This document shows, in pieces, positions 6,185 to 16,176 of a stretch of DNA of 30,848 bases (positions are counted from its first letter, which is position 1; each line of letters opens with the position of its first letter). A program made the position numbers and the translations under genes. Where the stretch lies: IMG/VR virus record IMGVR_UViG_3300001533_001096, positions 1-30,848 of that record. The stretch is one strand, 5' to 3'. Below the pieces are notes generated by a model. The model did no database searches and was not told the origin of the DNA. It worked only from the letters and a program-made list of their open reading frames with translations. The stretch is from a virus.

Positions 6185-6377
6185 CCTCGTGGACGGCGAC
6201 GGCTACGGCTACGGCGACGGCGACGGCTACGGCTACGGCTACGGCTACGGCTACGGCTACGGCGACGGCGACGGCTACGGCGACGGCTACGGCTACGGCT
6301 ACGGCTACGGCGACGGCGACGGCGACGGCTACGGCGACGGCTACGGCGACGGCGACGGCGACGGCTCTAACTCCTGA
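6159..6377 (+). CDS. Gly-Tyr/Gly-Asp dipeptide-repeat low-complexity protein
   Basis: The 72-residue protein has a 12-residue head (MPGQHTLVSLVD), then 28 consecutive dipeptides that are only Gly-Tyr (15) or Gly-Asp (13), then GSNS. It starts inside the end of the preceding gene with a GAGGTGA site at about 6144-6150. Every repeat codon pair is GGCTAC or GGCGAC, a single T/G choice. Tyr-Gly-rich low-complexity segments in other proteins drive phase separation or adhesion, and Gly-Asp runs can bind divalent cations; neither is shown here. Other frames across the repeat also stay open (Ala-Val and Thr-Ala runs), so coding rests on the good start, the overlap and the clean stop. Confidence 0.6.
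   Translation: MPGQHTLVSLVDGDGYGYGDGDGYGYGYGYGYGYGDGDGYGDGYGYGYGYGDGDGDGYGDGYGDGDGDGSNS
6195..6362. repeat. Hexanucleotide repeat GGCKAC, 28 units
   Basis: Twenty-eight uninterrupted 6-bp units GGC(T/G)AC cover 168 bp. Only the fourth base varies (15 T, 13 G), and the order of variants is irregular, so this is not a simple duplication of a longer unit. Confidence 0.95.
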
Positions 6378-10838: not shown

Positions 10839-10849
10839 TTTTCATCTTG

Positions 10850-10898
10850 GATTTCTGATTTTTGATTTCTGATTTTTGATTTTTGATTGTTGATTCCA
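10850..10898 (+). repeat. Seven GATTNNN heptads in a leader
   Basis: Seven 7-bp units run in phase: GATTTCT, GATTTTT, GATTTCT, GATTTTT, GATTTTT, GATTGTT and GATTCCA. GATT is kept in all seven while the last three bases drift. The tract is AT-rich in a GC-rich genome and ends about 14 bases before the GGGAGG of the next gene. Confidence 0.85.
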
Positions 10899-10924: not shown

Positions 10925-11626
10925 ATGGCGCGACGAAAAGCCAAAACGATGGAAGTGATTGAGGAGACGATGCCGGAAGAGGCACAAGAGCAGGAGCAGC
11001 CGCAAGAGGCGATTGCCGGAGATCAACCGATCGGTAAGCACCAGGCCGACCTGGACCGGGCGGCAGAGGCGGCATCGGAGGCGATGGAGATTTTATCCAG
11101 GATCGAGGACGCGACCCGAAACGTCGATGACGCCGCCCGGGAGGTCGCCAGCGCTAAGCAGGAGCTGAAGTTTCGCAAGGAGGTATACGAGAGTCACGTC
11201 GAGCGGCTGAAGGAGCTGTGCCGCACGCGGATGGAGGATCGGCCGCTGTTTCATGCAGGCGCAGAGCAGGCAGGAGCGGATGGCGAGGATGGCGACGAGG
11301 CAGAGGCAACGGACAAGGACGGCTGGAAGGAGCTGCCACTGGAGGAGATGGGGCTGCCGGCAAACCTGCTCAAGGCGCTCGACGAGGACGGCTTCGGCAC
11401 CATCGGCATGCTGGCCGACGAGATGGCCGCCGACCCGCTTTCGTGGCACGAGGATATCAAAGGGGTTGGACCGGCGGCGGTCGCGACGATTGCGGAGACG
11501 TTCGTGGCGTTCTGGCGGGAGCACCCCGAATGGGATGACGACGGGGATGACGGGGTGATTGAAGAGGAAGAGGACGAGGATACGGACGAAGACGAAGAGG
11601 ACGAGCGCCGGAAAGCAAGCGGATGA
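10925..11626 (+). CDS. Acidic coiled-coil protein with helix-hairpin-helix-like domain
   Basis: This 233-residue protein starts after GGGAGG. Residues 35-105 are a long charged helix likely to form a coiled coil (DLDRAAEAASEAMEILSRIE, then KQELKFRKEVYESHVERLKE). Residues 140-205 contain a helix-hairpin-helix-like unit with LLKALDEDGFGTIGMLADEM and IKGVGPAAVATIAETF, where GVGPAA is the DNA-binding hairpin pattern. The last 30 residues are almost all Asp/Glu. Such a protein could bind DNA non-specifically or act as a recombination or replication accessory. No named family is recognised. The first GGANN array starts 67 bases after its stop. Confidence 0.75.
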   Translation: MARRKAKTMEVIEETMPEEAQEQEQPQEAIAGDQPIGKHQADLDRAAEAASEAMEILSRIEDATRNVDDAAREVASAKQELKFRKEVYESHVERLKELCRTRMEDRPLFHAGAEQAGADGEDGDEAEATDKDGWKELPLEEMGLPANLLKALDEDGFGTIGMLADEMAADPLSWHEDIKGVGPAAVATIAETFVAFWREHPEWDDDGDDGVIEEEEDEDTDEDEEDERRKASG

Positions 11627-11692
11627 CCGCCCGAGTGCCGGAAGGCGGCTGGGTGTTCGGGAGAGGGGAGGAGCGGGAGACAAGTCATTAAG

Positions 11693-11875
11693 GGACCGGA
11701 CAGGACCGGAGCGGAGGGGAGTGGACTGGAAAGGACGGGAAAGGAGTGGAGAGGACAGGAGAGGAGCGGATCGGAGGGGATAGGAGAGGACCGGACGGGA
11801 GGGGAATGGAGAGGATGGGACCGGACGGGATCGGACGGGAGGGGATCGGATGGGATAGGAGCGGAATGGATTGGA
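11693..11875 (+). repeat. GGANN array A, 37 units
   Basis: GGA occurs at every fifth base from 11693 to 11873 without one exception (37 of 37), while the two bases between vary almost freely. The array ends GGATTGGATTTTT and is followed by an AT-rich leader and the gene at 11928. The rest of the 301-base gap (11627-11927) holds only irregular GGA-rich sequence at 11659-11680. Confidence 0.97.
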
Positions 11876-11927
11876 TTTTTATCACTAACACTTAGTTTTT
11901 TGTTACCAACAGGAAAGGGAGAAAGTC

Positions 11928-12503
11928 ATGTTTCAAACAATCGAGTTCGAGATTCGAGGCATCGCGCCCACGATTATGCACAACGGTCAGTTGTGCGACC
12001 CAATGAACACCATCGTTCGGAAGATGAAGGAGTTCACCGCGAAGAAGTCGAAGAAGACGGATGACGACTTCATTGAATTGGCCCGGCTGGAGTTCCTGGG
12101 GTCGCTCTACCTGACCGCCAAGGGGGAACCGTGCTGGCCCGGGGAAAACATTGAAACCATGATCCGGTCGGCCGCCAGGTCGGAGCGGCGGGGCAAGGAC
12201 GTGGAAAAGGCCATTCTGTGTGACGGGAATTGGCCCTTGATCTACGACGGCCCGAAGGACGCCGAGAAACTCTGGGAGAACGAACGCTTCCGGTTCGTCA
12301 AGGCCGTGAAGGTCGGTCCGTCTCGCGTGATGCGGACGCGGCCGATCTTCTCCGACTGGAGCCTGAAGTTCACCTTGCACTACGACCCGGAAATGGTCAA
12401 CCGCGACGACGTGCTGCGGTGGGTCGAAATTGCCGGCCGCGAGATCGGACTGAGCGAATGGCGGCCCAAGCACGGGAGATTCGAGGTTTTGAGTACGAAG
12501 TAG
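11928..12503 (+). CDS. Conserved-looking phage protein of unknown function
   Basis: The 191-residue protein starts after AAAGGGAGAAAG, at the end of the AT-rich leader behind GGANN array A. It has a beta-strand start (FEIRGIAPTIMHNGQLCDPM), a Lys-rich helix (FTAKKSKKTDDD), then LEFLGSLYLTAKGEPCWPGE, a short helical part, and MRTRPIFSDWSLKFTLHYDP. I recall similar phage proteins of unknown role, with IMHNGQL near the N-terminus and RTRPIF...W near the middle, but cannot name a family. Its TAG is immediately followed by array B, so arrays flank the gene on both sides. Confidence 0.75.
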   Translation: MFQTIEFEIRGIAPTIMHNGQLCDPMNTIVRKMKEFTAKKSKKTDDDFIELARLEFLGSLYLTAKGEPCWPGENIETMIRSAARSERRGKDVEKAILCDGNWPLIYDGPKDAEKLWENERFRFVKAVKVGPSRVMRTRPIFSDWSLKFTLHYDPEMVNRDDVLRWVEIAGREIGLSEWRPKHGRFEVLSTK

Positions 12504-12504
12504 G

Positions 12505-12662
12505 GGAGAGGAGTGGATGGGACCGGAGGGGAATGGACTGGAGAGGAGAGGAAGGGACTGGACTGGAGAGGAGTGGAAAGGAAAGGATCGGAAGGGACGG
12601 GAGCGGAAGGGACTGGAGGGGAGCGGACCGGAGGGGATTGGACTGGAAAGGATTGGATTGGA
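12505..12662 (+). repeat. GGANN array B, 32 units
   Basis: Thirty-two units in perfect phase (GGA at 12505 to 12660, every five bases) start one base after the stop codon of the 11928 gene. It runs into GGTTGTTTTCATCC, the start of a 28-bp element shared with arrays D and E. Confidence 0.97.
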
Positions 12663-12664
12663 AT

Positions 12665-12692
12665 GGTTGTTTTCATCCATTCATAACTAAAG
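12665..12692 (+). repeat. 28-bp inter-array element, copy 1
   Basis: The element runs from GGTTGTTTTCATCC to ATTCATAACTAAAG. An identical copy is at 13460-13487 and a third, with two differences, at 13567-13594. Each copy joins two GGANN arrays. Confidence 0.9.
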
Positions 12693-12774
12693 GAATGGAG
12701 TGGATTGGATGGGACGGGAGCGGAACGGAGTAGAGTGGATCGGAGCGGAACGGACCGGAGAGGAGCGGATTGGA
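12692..12774 (+). repeat. GGANN array C, 17 units
   Basis: Units run from 12692 to 12774 with one imperfect unit (AGA at 12732). The array ends GGATTGGATTTTTC, like array A, and is followed by an AT-rich leader to the gene at 12809. With array B and the 28-bp element it fills the 305-base gap 12504-12808. Confidence 0.95.
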
Positions 12775-12808
12775 TTTTTCTACAAATAAAACGAAAGGCT
12801 GAATCGCC

Positions 12809-13315
12809 ATGAAACCCATGAAAAGCACGGATATCGACCTAGAGTCCATCGGAATCGACATTGACGCCCTCAATAAGGGTGACTCTTTCTGCGTTGACCA
12901 ACTCGAAGACATGCTACACGAGCGCCGAGACACGGCACGATACGGGCTCGCGCTGCTTGCACTGCGAGACACCATCAGCCGAACGATGAAAGACCGAGGC
13001 AAGCCTGCCACCGTGGCGATCGTCAAGACGAAGCTGCGAATCCTGACGGACGAGGAAGCCGCAACCTACAACCACATGACCTTTCGCGTGGGGCTCCGCA
13101 AGGCACGGCGAGCCTTCGAGCGGCTCCTGACCGTCGATACCCGACTGTTCAGCAAGGACGAAACGCGAGAGCATCAGCGAAACATCGAAGTGGACGGCAA
13201 GATTCTTTCGGCCATTGCAAGCGAGCGGGCACGGTGCAGGAGGCTGCCGATGCCGCAAAGCAATGGCCATCAGCGAGTAACGCCCGGGCTGCCGAAAGAG
13301 CTTGTGGCGCGTTGA
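12809..13315 (+). CDS. Protein of unknown function between GGANN arrays
   Basis: The 168-residue protein starts at the ATG at 12809, with only a weak and distant GAAAGG upstream; an in-frame ATG at 12818 is an alternative. The N-terminus is acidic (TDIDLESIGIDIDALNKGDS), the middle is mainly helical and basic (RYGLALLALRDTISRTMKDR, FRVGLRKARRAFERLLTV), and the C-terminal 40 residues are Arg/Pro-rich. It is soluble, with no recognised family. Array C precedes it and arrays D-F follow it. A DNA- or RNA-binding role would suit its charge but is only a guess. Confidence 0.7.
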   Translation: MKPMKSTDIDLESIGIDIDALNKGDSFCVDQLEDMLHERRDTARYGLALLALRDTISRTMKDRGKPATVAIVKTKLRILTDEEAATYNHMTFRVGLRKARRAFERLLTVDTRLFSKDETREHQRNIEVDGKILSAIASERARCRRLPMPQSNGHQRVTPGLPKELVAR

Positions 13316-13324
13316 GTTGGTAGG

Positions 13325-13457
13325 GGAAGGGATGGGACGGGATGGGAGAGGAACGGACGGGAGAAGACGGGAAAGGAGGGGAGTGGATGGGAAAGGAATG
13401 GACTGGAACGGAGGGGATGGGAGAGGAACGGACCGGAGGGGAGCGGAAAGGATTGGA
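13325..13457 (+). repeat. GGANN array D, 27 units
   Basis: Units run in phase from 13325 to 13455 with one imperfect unit (AGA at 13365). The array begins ten bases after the stop of the 12809 gene and ends in the 28-bp element copy 2. Confidence 0.95.
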
Positions 13458-13459
13458 TT

Positions 13460-13487
13460 GGTTGTTTTCATCCATTCATAACTAAAG
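13460..13487 (+). repeat. 28-bp inter-array element, copy 2
   Basis: Identical to copy 1 over all 28 bases; it links arrays D and E. Confidence 0.9.
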
Positions 13488-13564
13488 GAGAGGATTGGAG
13501 CAGACGGGAAAGGAGTGGATGGGAAGGGAAGGGATAGGAATGGATGGGAAGGGAAGGGATAGGA
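13487..13564 (+). repeat. GGANN array E, 16 units
   Basis: Units run from 13487 to 13564 with one imperfect unit (AGA at 13502). Five consecutive units (13517-13541) are exactly repeated at 13542-13566, a 25-bp tandem duplication showing recent slippage within an otherwise diverse array. Confidence 0.95.
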
Positions 13565-13566
13565 AT

Positions 13567-13594
13567 GGTTGTTCTTATCCATTCATAACTAAAG
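13567..13594 (+). repeat. 28-bp inter-array element, copy 3
   Basis: It matches copies 1 and 2 at 26 of 28 positions and links arrays E and F. Confidence 0.88.
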
Positions 13595-13598
13595 AAAT

Positions 13599-13746
13599 GG
13601 AGAGGAGCGGAGGGGAACGGAGTGGAAAGGACAGGAAAGGATAGGAGTGGATGGGACCGGAGGGGAAAGGAAAGGAATGGACCGGAGTAAAGGGGATTGG
13701 ACCGGATGGGAGCGGAAGGGAAGGAAAAGGAACGGACCGGAAAGGA
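13599..13746 (+). repeat. GGANN array F, 30 units
   Basis: Thirty phased units run from 13599 to 13746 with two imperfect ones (AAA at 13689, GAA at 13724). The array ends GGATTGGTTTTTC. A C/A-rich leader without purines leads on to the helicase gene. Arrays D, E and F fill most of the 506-base gap 13316-13821. Confidence 0.95.
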
Positions 13747-13762
13747 TTGGTTTTTCTACTAC

Positions 13763-13821
13763 TTCACACACACACCTAAACTAACTCACCCATACCCATA
13801 CCCATAACACCACCCCACGCC
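13763..13821 (+). promoter_or_regulatory. C/A-rich helicase leader with three CCCATA hexads
   Basis: Between array F and the helicase ATG the sequence is nearly free of G: a short CA run (about 13765-13775) and CCCATA three times in tandem (13789-13806). There is no Shine-Dalgarno, so the start must rely on an unstructured leader or on upstream translation. Confidence 0.6.
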
Positions 13822-16176
13822 ATGCCACGCAACGAAGAACTAATCGCCGTCTTCACCCGCGAAGAATGGGTCTTCCAAGACGACGACCCGGAACGCCGGA
13901 CCATCATCGCTCGCCTGGACAACGGCCAGACCATCAAGGGCCGCGCCCCCGCCGGACACCTGGAGCCGGGGCTCACCTACCGTTTCTTGGGCCACTGGTC
14001 CACCCACCCGCGCCACGGCCGGCAGTTTCTTTTCAACAGCTTCACCCTCAGCTTGCCCCACGGCGAACAGGCGACGATCAAATATCTCGCCCGGATGGGG
14101 CAGGGTCACGGTCTCGGCAAGGCTCGCGCCCGTGCTATCTGGGACGCCTACCGCGAAGACGCCTGCGAGGTGATTCGGACCGACCCAGCGCGAGTAGCCG
14201 CCGACATCAAGGGCATCGATTTGGAAGCCGCCGAAAACTTGCAGCAGCAATTCGAGCGGAATGCCGCGCTGGAGTCAGTGACAATCGAGCTTGGCAACCT
14301 GCTCAGTAATCGCGGTTTCGGCCAGCGAATCGCCGCGCTGGCGATCAAAGAATGGGGCGAGAAGGCAACCGACACGATCATGCAGAACCCCTACGTGCTG
14401 ATGCGGTTTGGCGGGGCCGGCTTCATGCGGTGCGATGCGCTCTACCTGGAGCTGGGCCTCGACCCGGCGGCACTCCACCGGCAAGGCTACTGCCTGGCAC
14501 ACGCGATGCAGAGCGATTCTGAGGGCCATACGTGGTATCCGGTCGAGTTTTGCGCGGCCTACTTGCGACGGAGCGTAGCGGGGGCGAAGCTGCTGCTCGA
14601 TGAGGCAATCGAGTGGGCGATTGAACACGACCTGATTGCCCAGCGGACGTACAACGGGAAGCGGTACTTGGCGCCGTTGGCGGCGGTCGTTGCAGAAAGG
14701 CGGGTGGCGGAATACATCCATCAGGCGCAAGCGGAGAGCGAATGCACGCCGCTCAGGTGGCCAGACCTGACTGGATGCGTTGCGCGGTTCGACGGTCGGG
14801 AGGAAATCCCCGGGCTATCGGTCCACCAAGTCAATGAGGCGGCGAAAGCCACTGGAGGCATTCTCGGGATTCTGGCGGGCAGCCCAGGCACGGGAAAAAC
14901 TTTTGCTCTCGCCCAGATCGTCAAGATGATTCAATCGACCGAAGGCGCAGCCCGAATCGCTATTGCGGCCCCAACAGGCAAGGCGGCGGTGAGAGCAACA
15001 GAGAACCTCCAGAATCAGGGGCTCACCCTCGCGGCAACCACCATTCACCGACTGCTCAAAGTGGTGCAGCAAGATGGGGGAGACGGCGGTTGGGCTTTCG
15101 AGCGCAACGAGGCGAACCCCCTCGAACTTGACTTCCTGTTCATCGACGAAGTTTCGATGTGCGACACCTCCCTACTTGCCTCCCTTCTCGCTGCCCGACC
15201 AGCCGGCTGCCACGTGCTCTTGATAGGCGACCCCGACCAGTTGGCACCGGTCGGCCGCGGCGCCCCGCTGCGAGACCTGATTGCGGCGGGCATCCCGTGT
15301 GGACATCTCAAAGAGATTCGACGGAACGCCGGCCGGATCGTCGAGGAATGCGCCAGGATTCGCGATGACGGCCGGATACAGTTTGCCAAGCGTGCCAACG
15401 TCTCGGCCGGCGAGAACCTCGTGCTTGTACCGCGCGATTCGGCCGAGAGGCAGGCGGCAGAGTTGGAGGATATTTTGCAGCAGTTCATGCAGAAAGGTGG
15501 CGTCAAGGCGGCGGTGTGGGATTGCCAAGTCCTCGTGCCGCTGAATGAGAAGTCGGAATTGTCGAGGAAGCTGCTCAACAAGCGGCTGCAACGACTACTC
15601 AACCCGAACGGCGAAACGGCCGGAAACTGCCCGTTCAGAGTCAATGACAAAATAGTGTGCTTACAGAACGGCTCGCTCCCGCTGGTGGCCGGCGACAGCA
15701 ACGGCGGCGGCAAGGCCGGGGAAGCGTATGTGGCCAATGGTGAAATCGGGGAGGTTATCGAGGTCAACACCGGCTACCTGGTCGTGCAGTTGACCCTCCC
15801 CGACCGGCTCGTGCGGGTGCCGCGCGGGAAGCAATCCGAGAGCGAAGACGGGGAACCATCGGCCGGCTGCAACTTCGATTTGGCGTATGCGTTGTCTGTT
15901 CACAAAATGCAAGGGTCAGAGGCCAAGGTTGTAATTGTCATGCTTGATACACACGGCGGCGCCCGGTGGCTCTGCGACAAGCACTGGCTCTACACGGCCA
16001 TTTCACGCGCGAAGAAGCTCTGCCTTTGCATCGGCGAACAGGCGACGGCCGCGGCGATGGTCCGGAAGAGCAATATGTGGCTACGGAAGACGTTTTTGCG
16101 GGAGGATATCGAGGGGCTGCGGATGGATGTGGTGTTGGATGCGATGGATAAGGAATGGGAAAAGGTGTTGGTATGA
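13822..16176 (+). CDS. RecD2-like SF1B DNA helicase
   Basis: The 784-residue protein has the RecD/RecD2 layout: an N-terminal OB-like region, tandem helical units (GLGKARARAIWDAYREDACE, RGFGQRIAALAIKEWGEKAT), then the helicase core. Core motifs are Walker A GSPGTGKT (353-360), motif Ia APTGKAA (383-389), Walker B FIDEVSM (440-446), motif III GDPDQLAPVG (469-478), and C-terminal LSVHKMQGSE and YTAISRAKK. The length fits RecD2 (about 720-800). RecD2 enzymes move 5'-3' on ssDNA and act without RecBC; here it would serve phage replication or recombination. The start lacks a Shine-Dalgarno. The next gene overlaps the stop as ATGA. Confidence 0.92.
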   Translation: MPRNEELIAVFTREEWVFQDDDPERRTIIARLDNGQTIKGRAPAGHLEPGLTYRFLGHWSTHPRHGRQFLFNSFTLSLPHGEQATIKYLARMGQGHGLGKARARAIWDAYREDACEVIRTDPARVAADIKGIDLEAAENLQQQFERNAALESVTIELGNLLSNRGFGQRIAALAIKEWGEKATDTIMQNPYVLMRFGGAGFMRCDALYLELGLDPAALHRQGYCLAHAMQSDSEGHTWYPVEFCAAYLRRSVAGAKLLLDEAIEWAIEHDLIAQRTYNGKRYLAPLAAVVAERRVAEYIHQAQAESECTPLRWPDLTGCVARFDGREEIPGLSVHQVNEAAKATGGILGILAGSPGTGKTFALAQIVKMIQSTEGAARIAIAAPTGKAAVRATENLQNQGLTLAATTIHRLLKVVQQDGGDGGWAFERNEANPLELDFLFIDEVSMCDTSLLASLLAARPAGCHVLLIGDPDQLAPVGRGAPLRDLIAAGIPCGHLKEIRRNAGRIVEECARIRDDGRIQFAKRANVSAGENLVLVPRDSAERQAAELEDILQQFMQKGGVKAAVWDCQVLVPLNEKSELSRKLLNKRLQRLLNPNGETAGNCPFRVNDKIVCLQNGSLPLVAGDSNGGGKAGEAYVANGEIGEVIEVNTGYLVVQLTLPDRLVRVPRGKQSESEDGEPSAGCNFDLAYALSVHKMQGSEAKVVIVMLDTHGGARWLCDKHWLYTAISRAKKLCLCIGEQATAAAMVRKSNMWLRKTFLREDIEGLRMDVVLDAMDKEWEKVLV

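Follow-up and report, generated by a model that had tools for sequence, protein, structure and literature searches.

Organization of the array locus

The window analyzed here, a 30,848-nt stretch of viral DNA (IMG/VR record IMGVR_UViG_3300001533_001096, positions 1 to 30,848), carries within one operon six arrays (A–F) of a strictly phased GGANN pentanucleotide. The arrays and the genes and tails that accompany them are listed below, with the gene and RNA names following the assignments made in the subsequent sections.

11693–11877, + strand: array A, 37 GGANN units in front of vipr, taken as a putative long vrRNA, with a T-rich end after it and without the GGTTG tail
11928–12503, + strand: vipr, encoding a RAMP/Cas7-like protein of 191 aa, PHROG 4652 (phrog_4652, E = 3.6e-55)
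12505–12664, + strand: array B, 32 GGANN units, beginning 2 bases past the vipr stop codon; putative vrRNA
12665–12691, + strand: 3′ tail of B, GGTTGTTTTCATCCATTCATAACTAAA; the element recurs behind D and E, with a diverged form in locus L098; weak fold (z −1.2)
12692–12776, + strand: array C, 17 GGANN units, 16 of them intact
12809–13315, + strand: vap-like accessory gene, 168 aa, next gene after vipr
13325–13459, + strand: array D, 27 GGANN units
13460–13486, + strand: 3′ tail of D, a copy of the element behind B and E
13487–13566, + strand: array E, 16 GGANN units, among them a 5-unit block present twice
13567–13598, + strand: 3′ tail of E, the best fold among the tails (z −2.5)
13599–13748, + strand: array F, 30 GGANN units, ending in GGTTTTT

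A recount at the coordinates of the original prediction was exact, yielding 159 five-base units in which GGA was intact in 154 and the third base of the triplet was A in all 159; two extra spacer bases finish each array, so that the units end at 11877, 12664, 12776, 13459, 13566 and 13748 (A–F). When the NN positions of the six arrays were pooled, all 16 dinucleotides occurred, with an entropy of 3.90 out of 4 bits and base counts of A41 C32 G51 T35 at unit position 4 and A37 C36 G45 T41 at position 5. In 300 Markov-1 shuffles of 11500–13900, phased GGA runs reached 4 at most, against real runs of up to 37. The phasing and the near-random NN that had been described were borne out. Equally in agreement with the earlier description, all arrays lie on the + strand and are confined to three gaps of the operon, at 11627–11927 (A), 12504–12808 (B, C) and 13316–13821 (D, E, F). 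No longer period was found in arrays A–F apart from the repeated block of array E, whose spacers AG AG TA AT TG in tandem constitute the sole internal NN repeat of the window. Two tandem repeats of other kinds occur elsewhere in the window, namely the hexanucleotide ACGGCT at 6193–6366 (29 copies, 92% matches) and the heptanucleotide TTTTGAT at 10839–10895 (8 copies), which precedes the gene at 10925. Slippage does create tandem pentanucleotides, and a neutral microsatellite or an assembly artefact has to be weighed for the arrays on this account; near-maximal NN entropy beside a constant GGA already speaks against either.

Analysis of the array ends revealed that a GGTT-type end closes four of the six arrays (B, D, E and F), and GGYT closes many arrays across the systems considered below. 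Behind B, D and E follows a near-identical tail of 27–32 nt, GGTTGTTYTYATCCATTCATAACTAAA, from which the tails after A, C and F differ, and the fold was clearly better than chance in just one of the six tails. No promoter was recognized for the window arrays, and Rfam gave no match. In the systems L044 (8469–8510) and L074, the last array is followed directly by an intrinsic terminator (AAAGCCCGCTG...CAGCGGGCTTTTTTT), which is consistent with array transcription. These features bear on the possibility that the arrays act at the level of DNA, with phased GGA forming a double-stranded binding array (an origin, partition or packaging site) that is read once per half helical turn. The 5-bp phase does correspond to half a helical turn, and the window arrays adjoin replication genes; the arrays, however, follow the vipr strand, they are succeeded by conserved 3′ tails and in some cases by an intrinsic terminator, they are spread over several gaps of one operon, and their NN are replaced wholesale, and we regard a DNA-level element as very improbable.

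The gene between the arrays encodes a Vipr homolog

The original prediction knew of no described phage element like this, a claim that has been overtaken, since a homolog of vipr lies between the arrays and the VIPR system was described in April 2026 in a preprint (PMC13142463); the comparison with eukaryotic (GGAAT)n satellites proved irrelevant. In a phmmer search against the PDB, the vipr product gave one sequence match only, 36pp_D, 'SUSP1 Vipr protein' (E = 2.9e-34, residues 5–187). Its AlphaFold2 model reached a pLDDT of 95.2, and the best 50 Foldseek matches of this model were all CRISPR effector subunits, mostly Csm3/Cas7, which supports the RAMP fold independently of the preprint. The annotation of PHROG 4652 has so far been 'unknown function'.

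According to the main text of the preprint, VIPR combines a RAMP protein encoded by the phage with a vap gene and with vrRNAs that hold 9–16 YNNGG repeats and a 3′ tail; the repeats of its types follow GGY/NN 'or a related consensus (fig. S17)' (PMC13142463). In the guide RNAs, which alternate GGY and NN, the NN dinucleotides pair with dsDNA while one target base is skipped between pairs, usually the codon wobble base; the natural targets are satellites and prophages, and binding represses transcription. For the GGY relatives, the same text reports RNA expression, RNP formation, the one-base skip and repression.

Comparison of these features with the window revealed the RAMP homolog (by sequence, model and Foldseek), a vap-like gene beside vipr with weak homology to the neighbor gene of GGY phages, and hypervariable NN against a constant anchor, the latter both within the window and between relatives in other GGA systems. 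The GGY anchor as such is absent, its place being taken by GGA. Only array E falls inside the range of 9–16 repeats and C lies just outside it; this range, which the preprint gives as a description of the analyzed vrRNAs, was treated as a variable, non-defining trait. With respect to the VIPR systems in the part of the preprint considered here, the GGA anchor in place of GGY and the four arrays of 27–37 units, far beyond 9–16, are new. The VIPR of Escherichia phage SUSP1 (type II in PMC13142463) shares with the window a Vipr homolog, there with a solved structure (36pp), a vap gene after vipr, and vrRNA arrays, putative in the window, that both precede and follow the genes on the gene strand, built from 5-base units of a constant triplet plus NN and followed by a 3′ tail. 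The window differs from it in its GGA anchor, its arrays of 16–37 units, its only remotely related vap and its different tail.

Two further systems resemble the locus in part. The class 1 CRISPR-Cas backbone (Cas7/Csm3) has in common with it the RAMP fold, a repeated protein–RNA register and the inferred guide function, but the window has a 5-base rather than a 6-base register, holds its information in NN alone and is without CRISPR repeats or cas genes: no CRISPR-type repeat was listed for the window, and no cas match in Pfam or PHROG was obtained among the window proteins scanned. The binding sites of TRAP (MtrB) are about 11 repeats of (G/U)AGNN, likewise a pentanucleotide with a constant triplet and free NN that is read by a protein oligomer; Vipr, however, has a RAMP fold, which TRAP does not, and NN of the window type is set apart by its turnover and its coding signature.

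Six GGA systems (L242, L096, L078, L044, L240 and L241) carry homologs of the vap-like gene close behind vipr, and the profile of this gene gave a remote, weak match to the neighbor that follows vipr in the GGY phages LittleE and Trine (hhalign E = 2.3e-4, probability 45%). A fold search with the predicted structure of its product (pLDDT 79) returned no significant match. Directly behind array F lies a RecD2-like helicase gene (13822–16176), whose best PADLOC match was RecD of type IV-D CRISPR (E = 3e-47). Since no relative of it was present in the other VIPR loci compared, this helicase probably belongs to ordinary phage replication.

The array pattern recurs beside vipr in other genomes

The genome search that had been proposed was run with the array pattern alone against IMG/VR and GTDB genomes, retaining loci with an NN entropy of at least 2.8 bits, and the loci were examined with a Vipr profile seeded with the window gene. 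Beside many simple repeats, this revealed 40 other loci with high NN diversity, 34 of which encode a Vipr relative; the pattern thus recurs in other viruses. GGANN repeats of low diversity were mostly without vipr. In all 34 loci with vipr, arrays and vipr share one strand, with one additional array of L084 on the opposite strand, and two of the six loci without vipr are pieces of vipr-bearing systems (L104 is a fragment nearly identical to L098, and L075 is on the same contig as L076). Cultured relatives with GGC/GGT arrays beside vipr comprise Trine, LittleE, wV8, LESphi2, MakoManhole, Medea1 and Azospirillum and Bradyrhizobium plasmids, and they share the vipr–array layout of the window. 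In the annotation of Gordonia phage Trine, the start of gp40 runs through its GGC vrRNA arrays (L233, 4585–5385), and the true start probably lies later.

Arrays of more than 16 units made up 26 of 165 GGA arrays versus none of 16 GGY arrays. On the Vipr tree, where many branches are weak, the GGA and GGY labels require about four changes, and the anchor base therefore seems, from these sequences, to have switched more than once. The clade of the window holds 15 members (support 90/99), nine of them GGA, two GGY and four unclassified. Two loci carry vipr and vap-like genes of this clade (L240, 9155–10481; L241, 10001–11089), and no 5-base arrays were detected within about 20 kb around them. 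Inspection of alignment A2 by eye gave no Vipr residue that cleanly divides GGA from GGY readers.

Several VIPR systems display a tRNA T-arm hairpin (GGTTCGANTCC plus a paired stem) 24–56 nt past an array, in the stretches L235 3724–3900 and 5304–5365, L233 4688–4850, L469 2954–3020, L064 6832–7010 and L037 6887–6956; those of L037 and L233 scored as odd tRNAs. The hairpin was not seen in the window. The vrRNA tail may act as a tRNA mimic, perhaps for RNase P/Z processing, and the main text of the preprint makes no mention of a T-arm hairpin behind arrays (PMC13142463).

NN turns over while GGA is maintained

Relatives were compared within other GGA systems (L044/L074, L034/L071 and L056/L099/L100). 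Between L044 and L074 the flanks differed by 3.1%, GGA by 1.4% and NN by 50%, with NN changed in every array and all guides exchanged. The corresponding values were 2.4%, 2.0% and 31.7% for L034/L071 and 5.3%, 1.2% and 13.8% for L056/L099, in which some guides were identical and others partly replaced; the overall pattern among L056, L099 and L100 was similar to that of L044/L074. Across the four comparisons of relatives, NN was thus 50%, 32%, 14% and 23% different, against 1–2% for GGA and 2–6% for the flanks. NN that changes faster than the flanks is expected of guides and not of slippage or drift. The comparison of GGA with NN between relatives accordingly came out as the original prediction had it, with GGA under selection, decaying more slowly than NN, and NN free to vary in a manner that simple slippage does not produce. 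Together with the co-occurrence of diverse arrays and vipr in 34 of 40 loci, the excess of NN over flank divergence refutes the neutral microsatellite or artefact, which also recurs too widely, in independent contigs and in cultured phages, and to which we attach a practically negligible probability.

CsrA/RsmA binds ANGGA motifs, with GGA as the core motif. The array RNA might on these grounds serve as a sponge that titrates such a GGA-binding regulator and leaves NN free, for which up to 37 copies of the core per array, as well as the unconstrained NN inside one genome, could be adduced. CsrA, however, has no need of a strict 5-base phase, and the GGA core is absent from the GGY relatives; NN moreover changes far faster than the flanks and as whole arrays, unlike neutral drift, and the arrays are linked to a RAMP gene and carry a codon signature in NN. 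A sponge is accordingly highly unlikely.

A codon-position signature in GGA guides

Provided that the skip falls on the wobble base, each NN should correspond to codon positions 1–2 of a target gene, on either strand. We evaluated this premise with codon models built from the genes of each contig, phage codon usage being a stand-in for that of the targets. As the first codon test favored positions 1–2 partly via composition, permutation, swap and uniform controls were added. Over 27 GGA systems (2077 units), placing NN at codon positions 1–2 gained 37.4 nats over a phase-free null, a value attained in none of 500 permutations of N2 within arrays (mean 7.9, sd 5.6), whereas the other phases yielded 0.9 (2–3) and −137.6 (3–1). 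Skips of 0, 2 or 3 bases gave no gain, swapping N1 and N2 abolished the signal, and shuffling units among the arrays of one system lowered it. For the window alone, too small a sample, the test was not significant (0.96 versus 0.28, with 25% of permutations as good), and four GGY systems were uninformative. The result across the 27 systems supports the published one-base-skip/wobble rule for GGA systems, without recourse to known targets.

Direct target searches yielded nothing beyond chance, whether the window guides were compared with 1.8 Mb of DNA (skips 0–3) and 3.7 Mb (skip 1) for exact and near matches, guides were read as peptides in tblastn against 50,697 phage records, guides were sought as degenerate patterns in IMG/VR, or two L120 guides were compared with 21 genomes of the host family of L120 with 3 mismatches allowed. 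An L056 guide whose reading resembles a primase motif gave matches by chance only. In the search for a host via the terminase, the only relatives in Planctomycetota were distant.

Proposed function and significance

The homology and fold of Vipr, the co-occurrence of arrays and vipr, the turnover of NN with constancy of GGA and the codon signature across GGA systems lead us to conclude that the arrays are, with high probability, guide-RNA (vrRNA) genes of a phage VIPR system. Each array would be transcribed from the + strand together with its 3′ tail, and Vipr subunits (RAMP/Cas7-like) would polymerize along this RNA, one per five bases, gripping GGA and presenting NN. Successive NN would then base-pair with dsDNA reading NNxNNxNNx, in which x is unread and usually a codon wobble base, and binding would silence the recognized DNA. 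The most likely targets are competing phages, prophages or satellites, and the vap-like protein may assist in silencing them. The constant GGA would represent the protein-binding scaffold and NN the information, swapped when targets change. Against this reading stand the departure from the published GGY anchor and 9–16 units (16–37 in the window), the negative target searches for the window guides, the non-significant codon test in the window alone, the lack of a recognized promoter, a clear fold in only one of six tails, and the loci L240 and L241, with vipr and vap but no detectable arrays. We regard the window system as a GGA-anchored, long-array VIPR variant, probably used against competing mobile elements.

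We consider it about as likely as not that GGA constitutes a dialect of its own within the VIPR code, with switches between GGY and GGA more than once (in the clade of the window and elsewhere), and that some GGA phages build guides of 27–43 units reading 80–130 bp of target, either in a single long filament or through several vrRNAs that overlap. Such long guides go unreported in the preprint's main text and figure legends (PMC13142463).

VIPR recognizes DNA by RNA guidance, was described only very recently and has been proposed as a precursor of CRISPR. The present observations indicate that a search by array pattern is enough to recover Vipr systems from uncultivated phages, independently of the discoverers of VIPR, that the anchor can be GGA and that arrays can pass 30 units. 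In nature, guides are exchanged wholesale while the scaffold and the genes are kept, and a codon signature of the wobble-skip rule can be measured in GGA guides without reference to their targets. The window also suggests a function for PHROG 4652.
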